64,000 nucleotides of DNA, taken from assembly GCA_030430075.1 (NCBI GenBank), contig JAUIGN010000003.1, positions 124,001 to 188,000 on the forward strand. The letters run 5' to 3'. The translations under genes and the position numbers were made by a program. Shown piece by piece: positions 22,657 through 33,263 of the stretch; within the stretch, counting starts at the first letter, position 1; each line of letters starts with the position of its first letter. A model generated the notes under the pieces. That model did no database searches. It was given only the letters and a program-made list of their open reading frames with translations, and was not told the origin of the DNA. The stretch is from a bacterium (lineage in GTDB: Bacteria > Planctomycetota > Planctomycetia > Pirellulales > Pirellulaceae).

Positions 22657-22905
22657 GGATGATTCATCCGCCGGTGGGCGTTATCCCGCGATGCGGTTGA
22701 TCGCAGTGCGAACCGGCCCCTGACGCGAATCATTCATCAGCCGGTGGGCGTTAGCCGCGGTTCCGTCGACCGCAGTGCCAACCGGACGCAAACGCGTTCC
22801 GGCAGATATGCCCGCCGCTGTGGGTAAGTTCACGGCAATCGCTTGCGGCAACGCGCCTTGCCTTGCATCGAATCGTTGCGCGTTCCCGAATGACCCGGGC
22901 TACCG
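22657..22905 (+). repeat. Dispersed intergenic repeat, family 2, copy B with partial tandem copy
   Basis: The 300-base gap between the convergent sulfatase and RING genes is nearly all repeat. A partial copy (22657-22720, ATTCATCCGCCGGTGGGCGTTA) is followed by a fuller one (22727-22905) matching 3350-3514 and 52443-52615. The right end overlaps the last codons of the RING gene. Confidence 0.7.
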
Positions 22906-23754
22906 GCCGTCTTGCTTGCGCCCCTGTTTCGCGACCAGGAACCGCTTTTGCCCACAGCCGTAGGTCGAACAGTTTCCGTAGTACTGCCAGCAATCACGGT
23001 GATGGGGCGTCTTGCAGCTTCGGCAGAAGACGACGTCCGGCGTATCGTCATCCGAGATCTCATCCCCGCAGACCTGGCAGATGGCCGCCGTCAAGGAGAG
23101 GGCCGCTTCACGGTCGTCGCCGTCGACAAAGTCAATGCCCTCGGAATTCGTGTGCGATGCAGCCTCATGGAGTTGCAAGCCAAGTCGCACCAATCTGTCC
23201 AGCGAGGCACGGTCGCGTATCAACGAGTACTTCTTGATCAGCAGGCGGCCGCCGCGAATGGAAACATAGATGTCATTGTTGCCCAGGAAGTTCCGCAATT
23301 CATCGATCGCGTGCTGCACGGAGCCGCTGAGCAGGCGGCGAATCTCCACCTCTGAGTTGCCGCGAATGATATAGCGTTCGTCAAAGGCGGGCGACCCAAT
23401 CGGGATGTCCTCCATCCCGAACATCTTGCCGACGCCATGGAGGAAACGGAGCGGGTACACTTCGCAACGCAGGTCCCGGTCATGCCAGGGCAGGTGGAGC
23501 TGCGTGTAGAGCTTGGGGTGCTTGCCACCAGTCGAGTAGACGTCGATCTTGGCCGCGCCGCCGGCCGCGCGAAAACGGATCTGCGGGTGACTCAGCCAAC
23601 TTCCCGGCAGGAGGCTTCCGCCGAGACGAGACGCCACGCGGGCGTACGCGTCGTTCAGCGCCTTGGTTTGGTACTGGTTATGCCGGATCGCCAGGAAGGC
23701 AATGAACGCCACAAAGCACCCGATCCCGACAACAAATACGAACTCTTGATTCAC
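22900..23754 (-). CDS. Membrane-anchored prokaryotic RING-finger protein (B)
   Basis: A 284-residue protein, last of eight genes in the ubiquitin-like operon. One N-terminal membrane anchor (about residues 4-24) is followed by a domain of about 190 residues shared with the preceding paralog (GSLLPGSWLSHPQIRFR and GIDFVDGDD have counterparts there). A C-terminal binuclear zinc finger completes it: Cys226, Cys229, Cys244, Cys247, His251/His252, Cys255, Cys262 and Cys267 in the order CxxC, CxxCxTPHHRDCW, NCSTYGC. This is the prokaryotic RING pattern; RING domains act as E3 ligases by binding charged E2. The finger faces the cytoplasm if the anchor is a short N-out helix, which I infer. It starts 123 bases after RING A. 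Confidence 0.85.
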   Translation of the reverse strand: MNQEFVFVVGIGCFVAFIAFLAIRHNQYQTKALNDAYARVASRLGGSLLPGSWLSHPQIRFRAAGGAAKIDVYSTGGKHPKLYTQLHLPWHDRDLRCEVYPLRFLHGVGKMFGMEDIPIGSPAFDERYIIRGNSEVEIRRLLSGSVQHAIDELRNFLGNNDIYVSIRGGRLLIKKYSLIRDRASLDRLVRLGLQLHEAASHTNSEGIDFVDGDDREAALSLTAAICQVCGDEISDDDTPDVVFCRSCKTPHHRDCWQYYGNCSTYGCGQKRFLVAKQGRKQDGR

Positions 23755-23819
23755 CGGATGCCCCCATTCGCTGCGATGTGCTGAGCGCGCCTGCGAATTC
23801 TGGTCGCCAGACGGCGGGT

Positions 23820-23870
23820 CCAGCCTTCCACCGCCTGACGACGGCGGCGACTTCCTGGAAGTTTGGCTGG
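23820..23870 (-). promoter_or_regulatory. Stem-loop between the two RING genes
   Basis: CCAGCC pairs with GGCTGG and CTTCC with GGAAG, around an inner CCGCC/GGCGG hairpin. It lies 8 bases past the RING A stop and upstream of RING B. It could stabilise or process the mRNA. No T-tract follows. Confidence 0.4.
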
Positions 23871-23877
23871 CTCGTGC

Positions 23878-24774
23878 CTACGATCGAAACGGATTGTCGG
23901 AAACCGGCTTCGAGTCGCGATGGCCGGATTCCGCAGGGGAATCCGCTTCCGCCGGCTGGGGCGCCGTCCTGGCCGATCGCGGCGCCACGTACTGTGTTTC
24001 CTGACAACCATAAACGGAGCAAGCGCCATTGTACGTCCAGCAATCATGATGGTGAGGCGTCTTGCACCGTTGGCAACAAACCATGTCATGATCGATCGTA
24101 TCCCCACAGACCTTGCAGATCACGCCCTCCAGGGGTTGCGCGACATCGGCATCGACAAAGTCAATGCCTTCGACCTGCGTCAGCATGGCCTGATCGTACA
24201 GTTCGAAGACCAATTGTACGAACTCCGCCAATTCATCGGCGCGCCGCAAGACCGTAGGCTTTTGGACGGTCATCCGTCCATGTTGAATTTTGAAGTAGAC
24301 ATTGTCGTCTTCGGCCAGCAAGCGTAGCCGGTTCAATTGCCAGCGGACGCCTTCGCTCAACAGCTTCGCGATTTCGGCTTCGTCGCGGCCCTTGATGACG
24401 TAATCGGTTTCAAATTCGCGTTCGCCGATCCCCACGACCTGACTTCGGATCCCGGCGGGCCGAATCTGCTCAGGATCCCGGTAGAGTTCCAGATGCAGCC
24501 GGGCATTCGGCCAGTCGAGCCGCATCTCGCCGCCACGTCCGGTCAACGGGTGGGTTGCGCGGGCTTCGCGATAGAGGGCCCGGGTCGCTCCGTAGCGAAA
24601 TCGTATCCCCGGCCGCCCGAAGAGACCGCCCGGCAGGCACTGTCCAGCAAACCGCTTGGCAACATGCCGATACGCTCGACGCCGCTTGGCCGCTCGAGCC
24701 TGGGCACCTGCAAATGTTCCGGTAGAGACGACAAACAGGACCAGGCAGATGAGGAACGCGATGAAGCACTCCAT
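23878..24774 (-). CDS. Membrane-anchored prokaryotic RING-finger protein (A)
   Basis: A 298-residue paralog of the neighbouring RING protein. It has an N-terminal anchor (about residues 3-24), then the shared middle domain (CLPGGLFGRPGIRFRYG, VEGIDFVDAD) and a zinc finger at residues 220-257. The finger has Cys220, Cys223, Cys234 (with Cys233 beside it), Cys237, His241-243, Cys245, Cys252 and Cys257, spelling CKVC, CQRCKTPHHHDCW and ACSVYGC. A polar, Pro/Ser-rich tail follows. The predicted role is an E3-like adaptor recruiting the E2 at the membrane. Anchoring plus duplication suggests the pair works as a heterodimer, as many eukaryotic RING E3s do; that is inference. Confidence 0.85.
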   Translation of the reverse strand: MECFIAFLICLVLFVVSTGTFAGAQARAAKRRRAYRHVAKRFAGQCLPGGLFGRPGIRFRYGATRALYREARATHPLTGRGGEMRLDWPNARLHLELYRDPEQIRPAGIRSQVVGIGEREFETDYVIKGRDEAEIAKLLSEGVRWQLNRLRLLAEDDNVYFKIQHGRMTVQKPTVLRRADELAEFVQLVFELYDQAMLTQVEGIDFVDADVAQPLEGVICKVCGDTIDHDMVCCQRCKTPHHHDCWTYNGACSVYGCQETQYVAPRSARTAPQPAEADSPAESGHRDSKPVSDNPFRS

Positions 24775-24911
24775 AAGACGCTCACCCGCAGACGTGAGAG
24801 GTTCATATCATGAAGGCGGCAAGCGGGTCCCCACGGCGCGGACCAACGCCGCCCTGTCGTGGGCAAAAACCGGACGCTGTCGCCGCCGCAACGCAACGTG
24901 CGCCAAGTCGA

Positions 24912-25592
24912 TCATTCGTCCCCAATGTACAGCACATCGTCATCGCCGTGTCCATGCCTGCGGACAGGGCCGGTCCGTATCGGCAGCGACGGCGTCGGCG
25001 TATCTTCGCCGATGAAGAATACCTCCGCTGCATCGCGGGCGGGAGGCAACTCGAGTCGCCGGTCCCCGCGGCGCTGATAGCGGATCACGTTGCCGCCTTC
25101 CGGTGCGGTGCGGTCACGCAGCAGGCGAGGGTCGACGGGCAACTGCAGGTTGCACTCGTCCTCAAACCAGTTCTTCGCCGAATAATTCGTCGCCCGGCTC
25201 AAGTCCATGTACTGCAAGCGAGCGATATCCCACAGTCGTTCGCAAACGACGTCCAAGCCCAGATCTTGATCCCACGGCAACCCGACATCCTTAAGGTTGA
25301 TGAATCCGCTGAACGAGATATTGGGGTGGAAGACGGGTGTGATCCAGCGAATATCGGGGGGCCGGCGGGGATAGGAATAGGGCAACCGCAAATCAATGTT
25401 GTGCATGTCGACCAGCTCGACATCCGCACGGGGACTCGTATCCCGACGGATCCCTTTACCGCTCAAGGTAACCGAATAGCGATCGGGCGGCTGCCCTGTG
25501 CATTCGAAGTCGAAGATATTGCTCGCCTTCTTCAGTGCCCGCATTGCCTCCAACTCGGCCACCAGGCGATCGTGTCGTTCCTGTTGTGTCAC
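24912..25592 (-). CDS. E2-like protein lacking the catalytic cysteine (pseudo-E2/UEV-like)
   Basis: A 226-residue UBC-fold protein reading from GTG 25592, which has GGAG 7 bases upstream (an in-frame ATG at 25640 is the alternative). It keeps the E2 core: PYSYPRRPPDIRW, then FHPN at residues 88-91 and a GLDVVCERLWDIARLQ helix. At the position eight residues after the HPN asparagine, where E2 enzymes carry the active-site Cys, it has Asn99 (codon AAC, 25298-25296). The C-terminal tail has two acidic/hydrophobic motifs, AEVFFIGED (189-197) and DDVLYIGDE (218-226), matching two in the active E2. By analogy with eukaryotic UEV proteins it may bind modifier or E2 non-catalytically. Confidence 0.85.
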   Translation of the reverse strand: MTQQERHDRLVAELEAMRALKKASNIFDFECTGQPPDRYSVTLSGKGIRRDTSPRADVELVDMHNIDLRLPYSYPRRPPDIRWITPVFHPNISFSGFINLKDVGLPWDQDLGLDVVCERLWDIARLQYMDLSRATNYSAKNWFEDECNLQLPVDPRLLRDRTAPEGGNVIRYQRRGDRRLELPPARDAAEVFFIGEDTPTPSLPIRTGPVRRHGHGDDDVLYIGDE

Positions 25593-25754
25593 ATCGGTGC
25601 TCCGTGTCTCAGGGCGAAACCGCGATCCGCTGCAGCTCATCTCAGCTCATTGCGGCGACGAGCCCAGCCAGGCCGCGGCCCTGAATCCGCTTCCCGGGCG
25701 GCGGCATTGCCGTCGCCCGCCTTGATGATGCCAAGCACGCCTCGGATCGGCTCG

Positions 25755-25797
25755 ATGCGCCCCGTGGGGCGGGACCGACCGTTCCGCCGGGGCGCAT
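25755..25797 (-). promoter_or_regulatory. Strong intercistronic stem-loop inside the ubiquitin-like operon
   Basis: ATGCGCCCC pairs exactly with GGGGCGCAT, enclosing a second stem GGCGGGA/TTCCGCC. The element starts 28 bases after the membrane JAMM stop, in the widest gap of the operon. It lacks a T-tract, so an attenuator, RNase barrier or processing site fits better than a full terminator. Confidence 0.5.
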
Positions 25798-25824
25798 GCC
25801 GCTCAGGCGATGGGCATCGCTTCG

Positions 25825-27189
25825 CTATTCAGTGTTCGCCTCTTTTGAAGTTTCCTCGGATGATTCGTCGAAATCAAGGTCGTGTTTCTTGTTGCCCGCG
25901 ACGGCAAATGCGACCCCGGCCGCGATGAGGACCGCCACCGCGGACCCAACCCCGATCATTGTCCACTTGGAGACCCCTTCTTCGGGATCCGCCCCGTCAG
26001 CGTCGGTACTGCCGTCCGGCGATGTGGCGACCGCCAGGTCACCTTGCAGATTGGCATTCTTTTTCTTGAGCTCGTCAAGCGATTTTGTGAGGCTCGCCAC
26101 GCGGTCCTCCAAATACTTCCCCCGATCGGTGCTCGACTGAAGCTCGCGTTTCAGTTTGGCCTCGCTTTCGCTGAGCACCTCGTTAAAGGCAACCTGGCCG
26201 TGCAGGCTGTCCTGGAGGTTGGTGTTTGTCTTGGTCTTCTCGACCAGGTCCTGCAAGACCCCTTCGGGCGTCCCATGCTGCGCGCTCAGGAAGCGGTCCA
26301 GCACTTCGACCTGGGCCCGCGAGTCAGCCGCGGCGGTACGCGTCGCCGCCAGTTGCTCGATGCTCTGCTGCAGCGCCGCCATTTGCCGAAGCTCTTCGCT
26401 GGAAGTCTCCGGTGGCCACAACAGGCGGGCGGCGATGACCGCCACCAGGCAGGCCTGGATCGCCAGCATGCCGAGAATCGCCATGGACTGCCACGCCGGC
26501 TGTTCGCCGGAAATGTTGACGACCGGGGCGGGTGGCGAAGCGCCGCGAAAGCGTGGATCCTGAACCATGTCGAACTTCCCCTCAAGCTGGGCCGCGAACT
26601 GTGCTAGTTCGTCCTGGCGGAATCGTGATGCTGTAACGTAAAAACCACCGGTGCGGCGAATCCGTTCGGCCGCGTCTCCCGTCCACTGAAACAGCCCCCG
26701 GTCTTGCCGACAAGGGTCGATGACCAGGGCGACATCAAGCCGCTTGTTAAAAAAATTGTCGCAGATAAACATATCCATTCCGGAGAGGAAGACGCCCCAG
26801 TCCGGATGGGTGTGATACCAGCCGACGATCTGCAAGTCGTCGGGAAACTCGTCCCGCTCGCGGGAAATCTCCGACCACGTATCATGGGTAAACTTGAAGC
26901 TGCCCTTGGTGCTCTCGTAGTGTTTGGCGCGAAGGCTGTCCGTGATCACGACAAAGGCCCGGCCCTGCTCGTCTTCGTACTGGCCGCCGAGCATCACACC
27001 GCCCAACTCGACACTCGTATCCGTCAGGGCATGTTCCTCCATGTCCGCCAGCGAATCCAGGTCGACAAAAATGGGCAGGTCGTCGTCGGTCGGCTCGAAG
27101 ACGGGCACCACGGCGTAATGCTTGTTCTCGTCGGGGCGCAGCCGAACTTCGGGCCGCGTTTCTTCGAGATCGCCGAATTCGATTTCCAC
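25825..27189 (-). CDS. JAMM/MPN isopeptidase with two membrane segments and coiled coil
   Basis: A 454-residue protein. The N-terminal MPN domain has the complete JAMM zinc site: Glu61 (ELGGVMLGG), His126 and His128 (WYHTHP), Ser136 and Asp139 (spacing H-x-H-x7-S-x2-D). Two predicted membrane helices (about 236-257 and 406-427) flank a region of about 140 residues rich in heptad-like helices (AALQQSIEQL, KYLEDRVASLTKSLDELKKK). The tail is acidic and Ser/Glu-rich. JAMM proteases in such operons cleave isopeptide bonds formed by the ubiquitin-like modifier. The loop between membrane helices probably lies outside the cytoplasm while the MPN domain stays inside. The start codon is GTG; the E1 stop is 47 bases upstream. 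Confidence 0.88.
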   Translation of the reverse strand: MEIEFGDLEETRPEVRLRPDENKHYAVVPVFEPTDDDLPIFVDLDSLADMEEHALTDTSVELGGVMLGGQYEDEQGRAFVVITDSLRAKHYESTKGSFKFTHDTWSEISRERDEFPDDLQIVGWYHTHPDWGVFLSGMDMFICDNFFNKRLDVALVIDPCRQDRGLFQWTGDAAERIRRTGGFYVTASRFRQDELAQFAAQLEGKFDMVQDPRFRGASPPAPVVNISGEQPAWQSMAILGMLAIQACLVAVIAARLLWPPETSSEELRQMAALQQSIEQLAATRTAAADSRAQVEVLDRFLSAQHGTPEGVLQDLVEKTKTNTNLQDSLHGQVAFNEVLSESEAKLKRELQSSTDRGKYLEDRVASLTKSLDELKKKNANLQGDLAVATSPDGSTDADGADPEEGVSKWTMIGVGSAVAVLIAAGVAFAVAGNKKHDLDFDESSEETSKEANTE

Positions 27190-27236
27190 GTGATGTGCCG
27201 ATCAACTATGGGCCTGGTTCAGTTGCTTCCGCTTGC

Positions 27237-28409
27237 CTACACATTCATGACGGACCCCCGGTCCGCAGCCAAGAGGTACACGTGTTCGCCTTCGTTGGAC
27301 TCCACGCGGACCACGTCGTACGGGGGAACCCCCAGTTCGATCAACCGTTTGCCCGCCAGTTCGGATCCGCCGTCGACCGCGTGCACGAGCTCCGGCCGGC
27401 ACGTCTGGCCACATTGGGGGCAGACGGCCTCCTGCATGCTCACCTCCTGCAGCGGCCGCATGATCGGCTGGCTGGTCCCGCATTGCTGGCAGGCGATGTT
27501 CACGACCAGGTCCCGGTCGAGCGCCAGTTGCAGCGTGCCGCTCACCTGCGACCGGTCCCGGATCGCCGCGAACAGTTGCTCGGCCGTATGCTCCCTGGCG
27601 GAGATCTCCAGCGCGAGTGGGGTGGGATACGTTTCGTGACTCAGACAGTCTTCGCGGCGTTGAAAGGCCGTCTTGTAGACCTGGTTGGAGATGCCGTTGT
27701 AGACGGTGGCACAACCCGCATCGACGGGCATCCCGTGCAACAGTTTCAGCGCTTCCTGGACTTGCAGCCCACCGATCATGGACGAGATCGTCGGCGCCGT
27801 CGGCACCTTTCCGGCCTGCAAATCCTCTTGCCGCAGCAAGGGGCAGCTATAGCGAAGATTGATCAGCCGATAGTCATTCTCCGTCATCGCGCATTCGTAG
27901 CAGGCACTGTCCGGGGGCGTAAAGACCTTGACCACGCCGTTGATTTCCTGGATGCCGCCGTCGATCCAGGGCGTGCCCACTTTCCAGCATTGCCGGTTGA
28001 CCCACAGCCGGGCTTCGCGATTGTCCAGGCAACCGATCACCACGTCGACGTCGCGGAACATCCCCAGGCCAACCTCGGTCATAATGTTGGCCAGCATCGG
28101 CTTGACCCGGGTATCGGGATTGATGTCGCTGATCGCGGCGGCGGCCGCTTCCGCTTTTGGACGCCCACAGTCGCGATGCCGAAAAAGCACCGAACGAGTC
28201 AGGTTCGACTCTTCAATATGATCGAAGTCGACCACGTAGGCGGTGCCCACCCCTAGCAAGGCCAGGTTCTTGAGCACTTCGTTGCCGAGTGCTCCGGCGC
28301 CGACCACCAGCACCCGTGCGCGCGACAACTTCTGCTGATCCCACCAGGCAATCAGGCGCAGTCGGGAATAACGGTCGTCATCGTCGATCAAGAGGGTGTC
28401 GTCAGGCAT
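27237..28409 (-). CDS. E1-like (ThiF/MoeB family) activating enzyme
   Basis: A 390-residue E1. The adenylation domain has the nucleotide loop GAGALG (37-42), acidic ribose contact Asp61 (YVVDFDHIE), the NLTRSVLF asparagine/arginine pair (Asn69, Arg72) and CLDNREAR (127-134). CYEC at 170-173 corresponds to the zinc CxxC of MoeB/ThiF. Cys189 (YSCPLL), placed before PTAPTISSMIGGLQVQEALK, is the best candidate for the thioester cysteine. The C-terminal 130 residues add two CxxC pairs (307/310 and 330/333), a zinc ribbon that may replace the E2-binding ubiquitin-fold domain. It should adenylate the C-terminal Gly of the modifier and pass it to the E2. Confidence 0.92.
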   Translation of the reverse strand: MPDDTLLIDDDDRYSRLRLIAWWDQQKLSRARVLVVGAGALGNEVLKNLALLGVGTAYVVDFDHIEESNLTRSVLFRHRDCGRPKAEAAAAAISDINPDTRVKPMLANIMTEVGLGMFRDVDVVIGCLDNREARLWVNRQCWKVGTPWIDGGIQEINGVVKVFTPPDSACYECAMTENDYRLINLRYSCPLLRQEDLQAGKVPTAPTISSMIGGLQVQEALKLLHGMPVDAGCATVYNGISNQVYKTAFQRREDCLSHETYPTPLALEISAREHTAEQLFAAIRDRSQVSGTLQLALDRDLVVNIACQQCGTSQPIMRPLQEVSMQEAVCPQCGQTCRPELVHAVDGGSELAGKRLIELGVPPYDVVRVESNEGEHVYLLAADRGSVMNV

Positions 28410-28457
28410 ACCATGAGTACCACTTGGTTTCTACCGTCAGCCGGAATCGAAGCGGGC

Positions 28458-29048
28458 TCATCCAGTCCGCGGCTCGTCTTCCCAAACGCAAACAAATCCG
28501 CAATCCGCCACTTCTCCCCGGCGCCACTGAAAGAATCCCAACTCCTGCCGCTGCGGATCCACAACCATGGCAATCTGCCAGGGTTCGCTGAAGAAATTGC
28601 GATGAATGAACAAGTCGTAAGCGGAGAGGAAAACGCCGAAATTCGGGTGCGTATGGTGCCACCCGACGACCACCTCTTCGGGATAGGACGACTCGACTTG
28701 CTGATTCAGCTGCGACCAGGTCGCGTGCGTAAACGTCAGCGAGGCGGCTCGCGACCGCGTCTCGTGGGCCGGCAGAAAATGCCGAACTTCGACGTAGGTG
28801 CGCCGGTCTTCGTGGAAGCCGCCGAGCAAAAAGCCGCCCCGCTCACGCGAAACATCCTGCTCGGAATACGTCAAGATCTGTTCCAATACCAACTCGTGAA
28901 CGAAGATCGGCGGTGCATCCTGGAAGATCTCGCCCATTGCCGAACCGCCGGCCGTACCCTGGCGTGCTGGTGCCGGTCTTGGAATTGGCTGAATCATACG
29001 CGCATTCCCTGGAGCGGGCGGCCCTCGCGGGTGGCCCACGTCATCCAT
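28458..29048 (-). CDS. JAMM/MPN isopeptidase, soluble
   Basis: A 196-residue protein from ATG 29048 (a TTG at 29081 is also possible). After a Pro/Ala-rich leader of about 45 residues comes an MPN domain with a full JAMM motif: Glu69 (RERGGFLLGG), His132 and His134 (WHHTHP), Ser142 and Asp145. No membrane segment is present, in contrast to the second JAMM protein of the operon, with which it shares VGWxHTHPxxGVFLS and xDPxRQxxGxFQW blocks. It begins 38 bases after the E2 stop and ends 48 bases before E1. It is expected to remove or process the ubiquitin-like modifier. Confidence 0.9.
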   Translation of the reverse strand: MDDVGHPRGPPAPGNARMIQPIPRPAPARQGTAGGSAMGEIFQDAPPIFVHELVLEQILTYSEQDVSRERGGFLLGGFHEDRRTYVEVRHFLPAHETRSRAASLTFTHATWSQLNQQVESSYPEEVVVGWHHTHPNFGVFLSAYDLFIHRNFFSEPWQIAMVVDPQRQELGFFQWRRGEVADCGFVCVWEDEPRTG

Positions 29049-29086
29049 CGTCGAAGCCGCCGGCCCCGGCGAAACGGTCAACCCGA

Positions 29087-29734
29087 CTACTCGATAAACA
29101 GGATGTCGGGGTCTTCCGGTTCGACAATCTCCGCATCGACAATCTCGTCGCTACCGATAAACAGGACATCGGACGGCGCCCGTGGTGCCGCGGTGATCGG
29201 CGGCTTGGCGATCTCTTCCGGAGTCGCCGCGATTCCGGCCACCTTGTCGCGCAACGACCGCTGGTCGATCGGCAACCGGTACGCGTCCTGTGTCTTGGCC
29301 CACAAGGCGGCCTCGCGATTGTAGGGGCTCTCGACGTCGAAATTCTCGTAGCGAATCATGTCCCACAACATGACGCACAACTCGTCCAGATTGAGGCTCG
29401 GCACCCAATGCGTTCCGTACCCTCCCAGGCAGACGACCCCGCTGCCGGAAATATTCGGGTGAAAGATGGGCGTCTTCCACGACAAATCAGGCATCATCCG
29501 TGGGTAGGACGCACCCAATTCAATGGACACCTCGTGATGCTCGCGAATGAGTATCTCCGAAGCACCATCGGTCCGCCAAAAGCCCCTCCCGCGAAACCGG
29601 ACCAGGTAGGACTCCGGCGGGCCACCGAACAAGGCACCGGGGACGGTGAAATCCAGGATCGAACTGTCGTCCCGCAACTTTTCCAGCGACCTGAGATCAG
29701 TTCGCAGCCGGCGCGTACGCGGCGACTCACGCAT
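29087..29734 (-). CDS. E2-like ubiquitin-conjugating enzyme, catalytically complete
   Basis: A 215-residue UBC-fold protein. The core matches eukaryotic E2 closely: ELGASYPRMMPDLSW, HPN at 92-94 and the active-site Cys102 (codon TGC at 29431-29429) eight residues on, exactly the Ubc spacing, within SGVVCLGGYG. WVPSLNLDELCVMLWDMI corresponds to the following E2 helix. The tail carries two motifs, SDVLFIGSDE (188-197) and PDILFIE (209-215), like those of the Cys-less paralog. It should accept activated modifier from E1 and, with the RING proteins, pass it to lysines. The ATG at 29734 follows GGGAG by about 10 bases; the modifier gene ends 117 bases upstream. Confidence 0.92.
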   Translation of the reverse strand: MRESPRTRRLRTDLRSLEKLRDDSSILDFTVPGALFGGPPESYLVRFRGRGFWRTDGASEILIREHHEVSIELGASYPRMMPDLSWKTPIFHPNISGSGVVCLGGYGTHWVPSLNLDELCVMLWDMIRYENFDVESPYNREAALWAKTQDAYRLPIDQRSLRDKVAGIAATPEEIAKPPITAAPRAPSDVLFIGSDEIVDAEIVEPEDPDILFIE

Positions 29735-29813
29735 GCAAGAAATCTCCCTGGGGTTCTCGCGCCGCCACAACAGTTCGTTGAGAAAACGCAGTCACCGGCA
29801 CATGGTTCGTGGG

Positions 29814-29834
29814 GCTCGCAATCTTCCCGCGAGC
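29814..29834 (-). promoter_or_regulatory. Stem-loop between modifier and E2 genes
   Basis: GCTCGC and GCGAGC pair around a 9-base loop within the 117-base gap after the modifier stop. It may raise modifier mRNA relative to the downstream enzymes by blocking 3' decay. Confidence 0.35.
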
Positions 29835-29851
29835 ACAACAGGGTGGATCGG

Positions 29852-30142
29852 TTAGCCGGCGACAATTTCGGGGTAGACAATCAGATGATCCCCTTCGCCG
29901 ACAACGGCATCGAGCAACGTCTGGTCTTCTCGCAGACGCTTGCCACCCTCCTTGTGATCGAGGCTGTAGCTCATGGGCTGACCATCCGGTCCCATCACCG
30001 GCAGGTTCATCTTGGTAATAATGTTGGGCAGAATGCGTTTCACGGTGACCGTATCAGCAATCACGGCATCCACGGATTTAGCACCCGTTTGATCGAGAAA
30101 CGTGACGCGTGTTCCTTTGCGCTCTTCACCTTGGTCGGACAT
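29852..30142 (-). CDS. Ubiquitin-like modifier protein
   Basis: A 96-residue protein with beta-grasp features: an N-terminal strand TRVTFLDQTG, a helix after TVTVKRILPNIITKMN, MSYSLDHKEGGKRLREDQTL, where ubiquitin-like folds place strands and turns, and a final strand DHLIVYPEIVAG. The pattern (threshold loop LREDQTLLDAVVGEGD, final strand) resembles YukD/EsaB and ubiquitin. It ends in Ala-Gly with no extension, so the carboxyl-terminal Gly is already exposed for adenylation. GGAG lies 7 bases before the ATG. As the first gene of the E1/E2/JAMM/RING operon it is the obvious substrate of that machinery. Confidence 0.87.
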   Translation of the reverse strand: MSDQGEERKGTRVTFLDQTGAKSVDAVIADTVTVKRILPNIITKMNLPVMGPDGQPMSYSLDHKEGGKRLREDQTLLDAVVGEGDHLIVYPEIVAG

Positions 30143-30486: not shown

Positions 30487-32124
30487 TCAACCTGGTTCAT
30501 CAACGGCAACAATCTCGAGCTGCAGGCGACCCATCACTTCAAAGACGGGCAGAACGGCCGCGTAGCCGCTGCCGCTCGCCAGATTCGACTCGGCCACCTT
30601 CACATGGGCCGCGCCAATTCCGCCTTGACCCAGCGTGGCGTCCAAGGGAATCCAATGATCGCCGACCCAGACTTCGGTCCACATGTGATAGGCGAACCCT
30701 CCCGCCTGCCCGTAGTAGACCAAACCGATCGCCACGCGGGCCGGAATCTGCCGCGCGCGGCAGGCCGCCGCCAACAGCATCGCGTGCTCGGTGCAGTCGC
30801 CCTGTCGGCTCTTGGCAACCTCGGCGGCCGAGGCGATCGCCTGCGAGAATTCCGTAACGTCCACCAGTTCCTGAACCCGTTTCTCCAAGGCTTGCGCGAC
30901 TTGCCAGGCATCGGTTTCGTCCGCGGCAACCGACTGAGCAATCTCGATGACGGCAGGGTCGTCGCTCTGAATCAGTGAACTCGCGGCCAGATCTTGCTCG
31001 GTCGGAGGCCGGTCCTTCGCCACCGCGACCGCGGCCGCATTCTCCGGCCGCAATGCCTGGACGGTAATCTCCGCCGTCCGGGCATCCAGGCGTTTGACGG
31101 CCTGTGTCGCGCCGACGGCAAACGTCGCCACCGGATCGCCGGCGTCGATCGTCGCCCGGTAGACGATTCTTCGAGTCCGATGGGGGTGGGCCAGTCGCCG
31201 ATCGGTCTTTACCACCGAAGCGGCGCCGAGATCGAAGGGGGCCGCGTTCCCGTCTGCCCGCAAGGCAACGGCCCGCGTCGTGCGGAATGTTTCCTGACCG
31301 AGCGACGGGATGGCCGTCTTCAACGTTTCGCCCTGCTCATCCGTCCAGAGTACGGATTGCACACGGGTCGGTCCGATCTGCGTGCTGCTTTCGATTCTCA
31401 ACAACGTTTGCTCGCCAGACAGCAACCGGGTCGGCTCGTAGTCAACCGCCGTCAATTCGACCTGGCCGATCATATTGAACACGGCCATCAGCGCCCGAAC
31501 GGTCCGTTGCTCGCCCGGCTCCAGGGGATCCTCGCGCAACGATTGCTCGGCGCCGAAGAACCCGCGGCAGTCCGGGCTCCAATCCAAGGCCGAATCGTGG
31601 GACTTGCCGGGCGTGGTGGTGGTCATCCGCAGCTTGCCTCCCTCCACCCTGCCCTCGGTCTTCGTCTCGTTGGGCGCCGTCCCCATGGAACTGAGAAAGC
31701 GGACCAGCCGGCCGTCCGGATGCTCGACGGAAACGACGGTGATTTCCTGCGACACGGTTTGATTGAACCGCAGCATGGTCATCTGGCTGTCGGCGGTGAT
31801 CTTCACCAACCGTTGATCCCCTTGTTCCAGGGTCGCAAACCGAGTTCGCGTGTGACCGACTTTGGAGCCCCCCATGAAGACCGCGTCCCAGGTTTCGTGG
31901 GTTTGTCGCCCCTGCCCCGCGTCTTCGTCGACCTTGCCGCCGGCGGAGGAGACGGGCGACGTCGCCACCTGTCCGGGCTTCTCGGATGGGGCCTTTCCGG
32001 CACCCGCGTCAGCGGGTCCGGTCGGCTCGGTTGGGCGGCACCCGCAGGCACCGCAGACCAGCAGACCGGCCAGCCACCCGACGACCGCACGATACGCGCG
32101 GTGCCTCGCCTGCCTCGAGTTCAT
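30487..32124 (-). CDS. Lipoprotein with transglutaminase-like domain
   Basis: A 545-residue protein from ATG 32124, preceded by AGGAGCGAA. The N terminus (VVGWLAGLLVCGACGC) is a signal with a probable lipobox Cys. A long beta-rich region follows. The C-terminal transglutaminase core shows the catalytic triad: Cys in SRQGDCTEHAMLLAAACRA, His in FAYHMWTEVWV and Asp in WIPLDATLGQ. Bacterial members of this fold are usually peptidases or amidases acting in the envelope rather than true cross-linkers. It lies upstream of, and on the same strand as, the ubiquitin-like operon, 344 bases away, so a functional link is possible but unproven. Confidence 0.82.
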   Translation of the reverse strand: MNSRQARHRAYRAVVGWLAGLLVCGACGCRPTEPTGPADAGAGKAPSEKPGQVATSPVSSAGGKVDEDAGQGRQTHETWDAVFMGGSKVGHTRTRFATLEQGDQRLVKITADSQMTMLRFNQTVSQEITVVSVEHPDGRLVRFLSSMGTAPNETKTEGRVEGGKLRMTTTTPGKSHDSALDWSPDCRGFFGAEQSLREDPLEPGEQRTVRALMAVFNMIGQVELTAVDYEPTRLLSGEQTLLRIESSTQIGPTRVQSVLWTDEQGETLKTAIPSLGQETFRTTRAVALRADGNAAPFDLGAASVVKTDRRLAHPHRTRRIVYRATIDAGDPVATFAVGATQAVKRLDARTAEITVQALRPENAAAVAVAKDRPPTEQDLAASSLIQSDDPAVIEIAQSVAADETDAWQVAQALEKRVQELVDVTEFSQAIASAAEVAKSRQGDCTEHAMLLAAACRARQIPARVAIGLVYYGQAGGFAYHMWTEVWVGDHWIPLDATLGQGGIGAAHVKVAESNLASGSGYAAVLPVFEVMGRLQLEIVAVDEPG

Positions 32125-32573
32125 TTCGCTCCTGTCCACCACGCTCGTCACTCCTGTCTTCGCAACGAATGTCTCGGCCCCTCCAACCGACTTCGACCGT
32201 TAGTATAGTGGAGTCGACCGGCGAAACCGTACCCAATCTGACGACTCGGCAAGATACCGAGCAGAATAAATTCGGGATCTGCTCACGGGACTTCCTTCAC
32301 GCCGCAAACCGGGTGCTAGAATTTTTCTGAACGGCGGGTGTGACTGTCGTTTTCACGCGAAGGACGCCCCGCCCTCCGCTTCGATTCTGACGATTGGATC
32401 GAATGCGTGGGCCCCCTGCGATGCCAGTCGGTGGAGCGAACAACGTGTGAAGAAAAGGGCCCCGGCGGGCCCAAAAGGTAACGTACATTTTGGTCATTGA
32501 AAGCTCTTCCGTTGGCAGTTTTGCCGTCCCCCCCGAATACGAGCTCGCCTGAAATAACACACCGAGGACGACG
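32125..32573. other. Divergent intergenic region
   Basis: A 449-base gap between the divergent transglutaminase and unknown-protein genes. On the minus strand TATACT at 32202-32207 could be a -10 for the transglutaminase gene but has no good -35. A palindrome GGGCCC-CGGC-GGGCCC flanked by A-runs lies near 32457-32473. No ORF is supported. Confidence 0.4.
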
Positions 32574-33263
32574 ATGGGCTTCTTGAAACAGTTTTTTCGC
32601 AACGTTCTGCACGACGAGCCGGGCGCGGCCTGTCCCAGCAGCTTCGAACACCTCAGTGAGGAAGAGCTAGAGACTCACTTAGGTGTTCAGCGGTACGGCA
32701 ACTTTCAGTTAACCGAGGCGGTGCGTCCGTCCTACGACCTCCAGGTCGTGCCTGAACAGGGCTACCGCCACGACGTTTACACCGACGAAGCATCCAACAC
32801 GACCGTTCCCGTCGTCATGGCGTCTGCCTCGGCGCATGTGCTGTTCGAGCTGTTCATGGAGCTGATTGAACCGCTGGGCGAACAGTTGGACGTCGTCCTG
32901 GAAACCAGCCACAACCGCTCAGGCGGCCACCAGGATCTCTATCGTGAGCACATCGATGCTCCCGTGCTGAAAAGCGTACTCTGGGACTTCGAAGAAATGC
33001 TCCTCAATGATGGCTGCACGGGCATCGCCGTCTTGAACCCCGGAATTCCGCAGGAAGTCCAGTTCGACGAACATAAACTGCTGATCGTCTACGGCCAGCC
33101 CCTGGATCGCTTCGAGTCCATCATGCGATCGTACGATGTCGCTCAACGGGATGAAATCAAGTTCATCACAGAGGCCGAACACGTGCATTCGTCCAGCGAC
33201 ACGTACGCCGACCAGTTCGACGAATTGAAACTGCGACTCGGCATGGACTGCACGTTCGAGTAA
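32574..33263 (+). CDS. Conserved-looking cytosolic protein of unknown function
   Basis: A 229-residue acidic protein. It begins MGFLKQFFRNVLHDEPGAAC, then LSEEELETHLGVQRYGNFQL, and contains a central segment ELFMELIEPLGEQLDVVLETSH followed by VLKSVLWDFEEMLLNDGCTG. There is no signal peptide, membrane segment or catalytic motif that I recognise. Composition and codon use match neighbouring genes, so it is very likely real. It stands alone, divergent from the transglutaminase gene. No function is proposed. Confidence 0.7.
   Translation: MGFLKQFFRNVLHDEPGAACPSSFEHLSEEELETHLGVQRYGNFQLTEAVRPSYDLQVVPEQGYRHDVYTDEASNTTVPVVMASASAHVLFELFMELIEPLGEQLDVVLETSHNRSGGHQDLYREHIDAPVLKSVLWDFEEMLLNDGCTGIAVLNPGIPQEVQFDEHKLLIVYGQPLDRFESIMRSYDVAQRDEIKFITEAEHVHSSSDTYADQFDELKLRLGMDCTFE

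Follow-up and report, generated by a model that had tools for sequence, protein, structure and literature searches.

A 64,000-nucleotide stretch of a Pirellulaceae genome (the window; GenBank assembly GCA_030430075.1, contig JAUIGN010000003.1, positions 124,001 to 188,000) contains eight consecutive genes, all on the minus strand between window positions 22900 and 30142, that probably encode a reversible protein-tagging cascade acting at the inner face of the cell membrane. A second, cysteine-less E2 would serve in it as a partner similar to the ubiquitin E2 variants (UEVs) of eukaryotes, and judging from the sequences we put the probability of this reading at about 0.62. In order, the open frames specify a ubiquitin-like modifier (Ubl), an active-type E2 (E2a), a JAMM-type protease (JAB1), an E1, a second JAMM-type protease (JAB2), the cysteine-less E2 (E2b), and two RING proteins (RINGa and RINGb). 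All eight proteins score above the Pfam curated cut-offs for their expected families, which bears out the parts list of an earlier sequence-only reading; none matched NCBIfam above a curated cut-off (matches considered to E of 1 and, for the E1, the best 25 of 32). Intergenic gaps within the cluster are 5–184 nt by open reading frame (ORF) call, and the eight genes presumably form a single transcript; several true starts probably lie inside the called ORFs, for example at the ATG at 29734 in E2a and the GTG at 25592 in E2b. In the 9.24 Mb host genome (101 contigs), this cluster accounts for both Prok-RING_1 matches and for the sole YukD match. A chance cluster is ruled out by the family matches together with synteny, because ten other loci carry the first six genes in the same order (see below).

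The modifier and its activating enzyme

The Ubl (29852–30142; 96 amino acids) is YukD-like (PF08817, 3.1e-15) and ends in ...VYPEIVAG, with Gly96 the last residue and no tail. Among 67 Ubl rows from related loci (the window is counted, two rows are near copies and one place was entered twice), 66 have Gly at the Gly96 position and one, L057, has Ala (loci are labelled L and genomes G); the preceding residue is Ala in all 67. A stop follows directly in 23 rows, and in the other 44 there are 1 to 146 extra residues that are not conserved; the kept Ala-Gly end with its unconserved tails suggests a processed modifier. The 146-residue extension, in the Ubl frame at L123:1864-3195, contains CPYCGE and is perhaps a fused zinc-finger domain. 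The modifier shares its Pfam family with YukD of type VII secretion, which is described as adjoining ESAT-6 export genes (PMC1779556), but here it stands beside E1, E2 and JAMM genes and ends in Ala-Gly. A type VII secretion role was rejected, as the genome's single YukD match is in this cluster; the genes scanned in and around the cluster include none of ESX/FtsK type, the rest of the genome not having been searched for them.

The E1 (27237–28409; 390 amino acids; PF00899, 9.4e-59) has a ThiF match that is unbroken over residues 18–255 and includes Cys189 (codon 27843–27845), the candidate catalytic residue, which is kept in all 65 rows with a residue at that position. The profile searches agree with the earlier placement of the modifier in the beta-grasp class and the E1 in ThiF. 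The E1 has one ThiF domain and lacks the separate catalytic cysteine domain of canonical E1s (UBA1/UBA3 type); the ATP-site residues are conserved in an alignment of relatives. Further cysteine sets are C170/C173 with C255/H258 and a ribbon of C307/C310/C330/C333, and there is an additional C-terminal domain. A structure model (predicted local distance difference test, pLDDT, 84; predicted template-modelling score, pTM, 0.85) superposes on MoeB, ThiF and UBA3, and in a PDB search the best single stretch was to UBA3 (120.7 bits), followed by ThiF (112.9 bits).

An active-type E2 and a conserved E2 without its cysteine

E2a (29087–29770, likely start ATG 29734; PF00179, UQ_con, 5.3e-13) contains an HPN motif and a cysteine (codon 29429–29431) that is invariant in a 20-sequence alignment, and its best 60 listed PDB matches are UBC-type E2s, nearly all of them eukaryotic. 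E2b (24912–25640, likely start GTG 25592; PF00179, 3.1e-8) keeps the HPN, and the cysteine is replaced by Asn99 (226-residue numbering; codon 25296–25298). This is the second, cysteine-less E2 that the sequence-only reading had proposed, and the same lack is seen in its homologues: in the best 120 of 357 (own protein included), the cysteine is missing from all 120, the His and Pro of HPN are kept in all 120, its Asn in 115, and a later Trp in 119. The residue in place of the cysteine in these 120 is N in 76, D in 10, H in 10, Q in 7, K in 5, and R, T and S in 4 each. A tree of 88 E2 domains puts the 11 E2b proteins from loci with both E2s on one side of a branch with support of 99/98, although the bootstrap is unsettled and the E2b of L108 is a very long branch. 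A Cys-bearing E2 shares the cluster with E2b in all 11 of these loci. Because the homologues lack the cysteine, keep the HPN and group together on the tree, we regard E2b as a conserved clade and a retained pseudo-enzyme. That E2b is a decaying E2 is ruled out by the strong conservation of the homologues and the single tree group. L059, L133, L063 and L065 each hold a lone E2-like protein that has no Cys and whose tail resembles a zinc ribbon; these proteins are positioned away from E2b on the tree, and no cascade genes were found within the stretches read.

Proteases, RING proteins and membrane anchors

The JAMM motif is intact in both proteases (HTHPNFGVFLSAYD and HTHPDWGVFLSGMD), as earlier noted, and is present in 74 of the 75 JAB frames of the loci surveyed. 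JAB1 (28458–29081, true start probably inside the ORF; PF01398, JAB, 1.8e-11) has no membrane helix, and its closest solved relatives are Rpn11/PSMD14 (4.7e-9). JAB2 (25825–27189; PF01398, 6.2e-9) consists of a JAMM domain, a membrane helix at residues 236–254, a stretch of ~150 residues, and a second helix at 406–424. RINGa (23878–24774; PF14446, Prok-RING_1, 2.1e-9) has a membrane helix at residues 3–21, a stalk domain and a C4HC3 RING; RINGb (22900–23754; Prok-RING_1, 7.6e-14) has a membrane helix, a DUF3137/TtfA-like stalk and a C4HC3 RING with ligands C226, C229, C244, C247, H252, C255, C262 and C267. The ligand pattern is present in 82 of 86 RING frames of the loci. By hydropathy, each RING protein has one N-terminal helix, JAB2 has two helices and the remaining five proteins lack any, in keeping with the three membrane-anchored parts (both RINGs and JAB2) previously suggested.

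A shared E2 tail motif and an unlinked membrane protein

Both E2s have in their tails an acidic-hydrophobic motif of the form D/E-V/I-L/F-F/Y-I-G/D/E, which we take to be similar to SUMO-interacting motifs (SIMs). In E2a these are SDVLFIG (29154–29170) in the tail and PDILFIE (29091–29107) at the extreme C-terminus; in E2b they are AEVFFIG (25009–25025) in the tail and DDVLYIGDE (24922–24938) at the end. At least one motif is present in 109 of 110 E2b homologue tails compared with 0.74 in shuffles, and two or more matches (overlaps counted) in 102 of 110 compared with 0.1; ten of the 120 rows were dropped, the tail being unclear or too short. Among the E2s of the loci, the motif is in 10 of 11 E2b proteins, 9 of 11 E2a proteins of the doubled layout and 20 of 25 other CLG-type E2s (shuffle averages 0.07, 0.25 and 0.33, respectively), and in none of the 43 E2s of other types, 29 of which have a CxxC...CxxC pattern in the tail instead.

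A strict DNA pattern of the motif has two matches in the host genome, one in E2b and the other in a gene for a 106-residue protein on another contig (L143:1264-1584); the reversed pattern has no match. The 106-residue protein begins MFGKPQWF, has two hydrophobic stretches and has no Pfam match (E up to 0.01). Relatives are present in eight of ten operon-bearing genomes of the family (own counted; missing from G621 and G671) and in none of 20 listed same-family genomes without an E2 match, although more such genomes may exist. Fisher's test for the co-occurrence gives 7.7e-6 with the own genome, the source of the lead, counted and kinship uncorrected, and if the carriers form one clade the co-occurrence is one event. 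By coordinates the gene adjoins the operon in none of the eight carriers. The motif is near the E2 form in five of these eight genomes and looser in G459 and G641, and G353 has only HEIQFLE. We consider this two-helix membrane protein the best candidate for an unlinked further component.

A proposed tagging cascade

A simple route can be drawn through these parts. Where a species has a tail on the modifier, a JAMM protease would trim it after Ala-Gly; here the modifier already ends at Gly. The E1 would adenylate Gly96 and receive the modifier on Cys189, E2a would take it over, and a RING protein, anchored by its N-terminal helix, would bring the charged E2a to a substrate in or near the membrane. 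The soluble JAB1 and the membrane-bound JAB2 would remove the modifier. E2b has no cysteine for a thioester and likely positions the acceptor as a UEV-like partner of E2a, much as Mms2 does for Ubc13. The SIM-like motifs at both E2 ends may be binding sites for the modifier or for a docking protein common to the two E2s, and the unlinked two-helix protein, with the same motif, could be a further component. All of the chemistry, what E2b and the motif do, and where the cascade acts are our inferences from the sequences.

In the eukaryotic Ubc13-Mms2/UEV pair, one E2 has the cysteine and the other is a Cys-less E2 fold. E2b is similar to Mms2 and Uev1 in having a UBC fold without the catalytic Cys, but differs in the SIM-like motifs of its tail, and its heterodimer with E2a is a prediction. 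The strongest competing explanation, which we judge appreciably less probable, is that conjugation is real and that E2b is a scaffold or brake, holding the E1, the modifier or the RING proteins by its tail motifs. The variation in the residue that replaces the cysteine (in the best 120 of 357 homologues) and the wide retention of the tail motifs would fit such a role; however, the HPN and the Trp that follows are kept, which suggests that an E2-like surface is in use and speaks against it. In an extension of the UEV-like reading, bacteria would have a Ubc13-UEV-like pair of their own: the active E2 and its dedicated dead counterpart would assemble Ubl chains at the inner membrane with membrane-bound RING proteins as the E3s, and writing, reading and erasing would be organized by a SIM-like code common to the E2 tails and the unlinked two-helix receptor. 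This extension is speculative and, in our judgement, rather unlikely.

Distribution and layouts

UQ_con is present in 35 of 392 genomes of a phylum sample. In a class sample, 71 of 397 genomes have some kind of E2b relative; the relatives named are Pirellulaceae, Planctomycetaceae and other Planctomycetota assemblies. The 81 loci scanned comprise the window, 36 covering the other UQ_con genomes, 4 further loci, and 40 selected from E2b-relative matches, in which not every one of the 71 genomes is represented. L102 and L126 are apparently one place, L034 and L035 are near copies, and since the loci were picked by E2 matches the layout counts are not layout frequencies.

The order Ubl-E2a-JAB1-E1-JAB2-E2b is present in 11 of the 81 loci (the window, L044, L099, L100, L101, and L103 to L108). 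In nine of the 11 there are RING genes downstream: two in the window, L099, L100, L101 and L105, three in L103, and one in L044, L107 and L108; G683 (L106) and G746 (L104) have RING genes elsewhere in the genome. The second RING gene of L100, from a metagenome assembly, is split over two frames (L100:10577-11397), which could be an assembly error. Simpler layouts include Ubl-E2-E1-JAB2 with a RING gene after, before or outside the stretch, a four-gene core, and Ubl-E1-JAB-...-RINGs-E2. In the last of these (L034, L041, L054, L123 and similar), a gap follows the JAB gene and two or three RING proteins whose helices are not N-terminal precede the E2, which has a CxxC...CxxC tail in 25 of 30 cases. 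The doubled set is thus a lineage variant with JAB1 and E2b added, beside layouts without them. The suggestion that the same genes elsewhere would mark a conserved module is sustained by the six-gene order in ten other loci, and the synteny survey did not refute it. The two E2s, JAMM proteases and RINGs that had been called unusual are all present, but the arrangement is a lineage variant and not a one-off.

Within the family, all ten carriers of the operon (own counted) have one YukD match each, and none of 20 listed non-carriers has any. Prok-RING_1 is likewise in all ten carriers, and in five of the 20 non-carriers (G121, G339, G421, G436 and G540), with one match each despite no E2 or YukD match. 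Nine carriers of the other family were tested as well, and Prok-RING_1 is present in eight and missing from G434.

Flanking genes and the question of defence

Directly upstream is a minus-strand gene for a transglutaminase-fold protein (30487–32151; PF01841, 4e-19), which is in the same position in L044, L099, L101, L103 and L105. Beyond it, in the same five relatives as well, is a divergent 229-residue gene (32574–33263) that is 64–91% identical and has no Pfam match. The pair is not seen in the other five doubled loci, and the transglutaminase-fold protein is a conserved neighbor that may be outside the system. Most of the flanking genes that match a Pfam family are metabolic.

An anti-phage operon of the Bil or Bub sort, tagging phage or host proteins during infection, seems unlikely. 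The enzyme classes are the same as in Bil, and PADLOC gives partial-length matches of its E1-E2 models to the E1 (up to 1.4e-20) and of its JAB models to the JAMM proteases (for JAB1, up to 1.1e-9). The patchiness of the operon in the family (10 with, at least 20 without) leaves room for defence, and the upstream neighbors are not common to five of the ten other doubled loci. However, PADLOC has no match for the modifier, either E2, either RING protein or any of ten flanking genes; its Bil models reach 0.0021 (BilC, JAB1) and 2.9e-9 (BilD, E1) over parts only, with none for the modifier or E2. There are no PHROGs matches for the six proteins tried, and the E1 has just one ThiF domain. A connection with Bil-type defence, drawn from the sequence alone, is thus not supported, and a defence island has no support from PADLOC, PHROGs or the flanking genes. 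As the flanks are mostly metabolic and free of PADLOC matches, and the upstream pair is kept in five relatives, the context suits stable inheritance within part of the lineage better than it suits a defence island. A sulfur-carrier pathway (ThiS/MoaD with ThiF/MoeB) in place of protein tagging is very improbable: the E1 model superposes not only on UBA3 but also on MoeB and ThiF, but the cluster holds an E2 with a conserved cysteine, RINGs and JAMM proteases, the tails after Ala-Gly are variable, and no thiamine or molybdenum-cofactor gene is among the flanking genes scanned.

Relationship to known systems

Burroughs, Iyer and Aravind reportedly predicted RING-linked prokaryotic Ubl/E1/E2/JAB operons in 2011, and this kind of cascade is already known as a prediction. 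Like those operons as reported, the cluster has a YukD-like Ubl, a ThiF E1, an E2, a JAB and a Prok-RING in one neighborhood, and the modifier has a conserved C-terminal Gly. Compared with those operons, the apparent additions here are the doubled layout, the conserved Cys-less E2, and the combination of a soluble and a membrane JAMM protease. A review cites the 2011 work for relatives of the archaeal operon in Actinobacteria, Planctomycetes and Acidobacteria (PMC4197634). In Caldiarchaeum subterraneum, a nine-residue modifier tail is cut by Rpn11 (a JAMM protease) before the E1 accepts the modifier, and the trimmed pro-ubiquitin is conjugated by E1, E2 and a RING protein (PMC5654768). That operon has the same classes of modifier, E1, E2, RING and JAMM, with conjugation shown there and predicted here; it has one E2, one small RING protein and a Gly-Gly end, whereas here there are an Ala-Gly end, two E2s and membrane anchors. 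The Bil operon also groups a modifier, E1, E2 and JAMM, in four genes, but its E1 consists of an inactive and an active adenylation domain (PMC11354881), unlike the single-domain E1 and accompanying RING genes described here. For Bub, 544 operons have been identified (PMC13373217).

What appears to be new is the conserved pseudo-E2, the Ala-Gly end with a free tail, the E2 tail motif and the unlinked partner candidate. A literature search found nothing on a conserved Cys-less planctomycete E2, the Ala-Gly end with a free tail, the tail motif or an unlinked partner, although key papers were outside the search and these may be in print. If the proposed cascade is correct, paired E2s, SIM-like reading and membrane-bound E3s would not be eukaryotic inventions. 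The genes form a small clonable set for testing how E3-directed tagging originated, and the motif search yields a concrete candidate for an unlinked partner.

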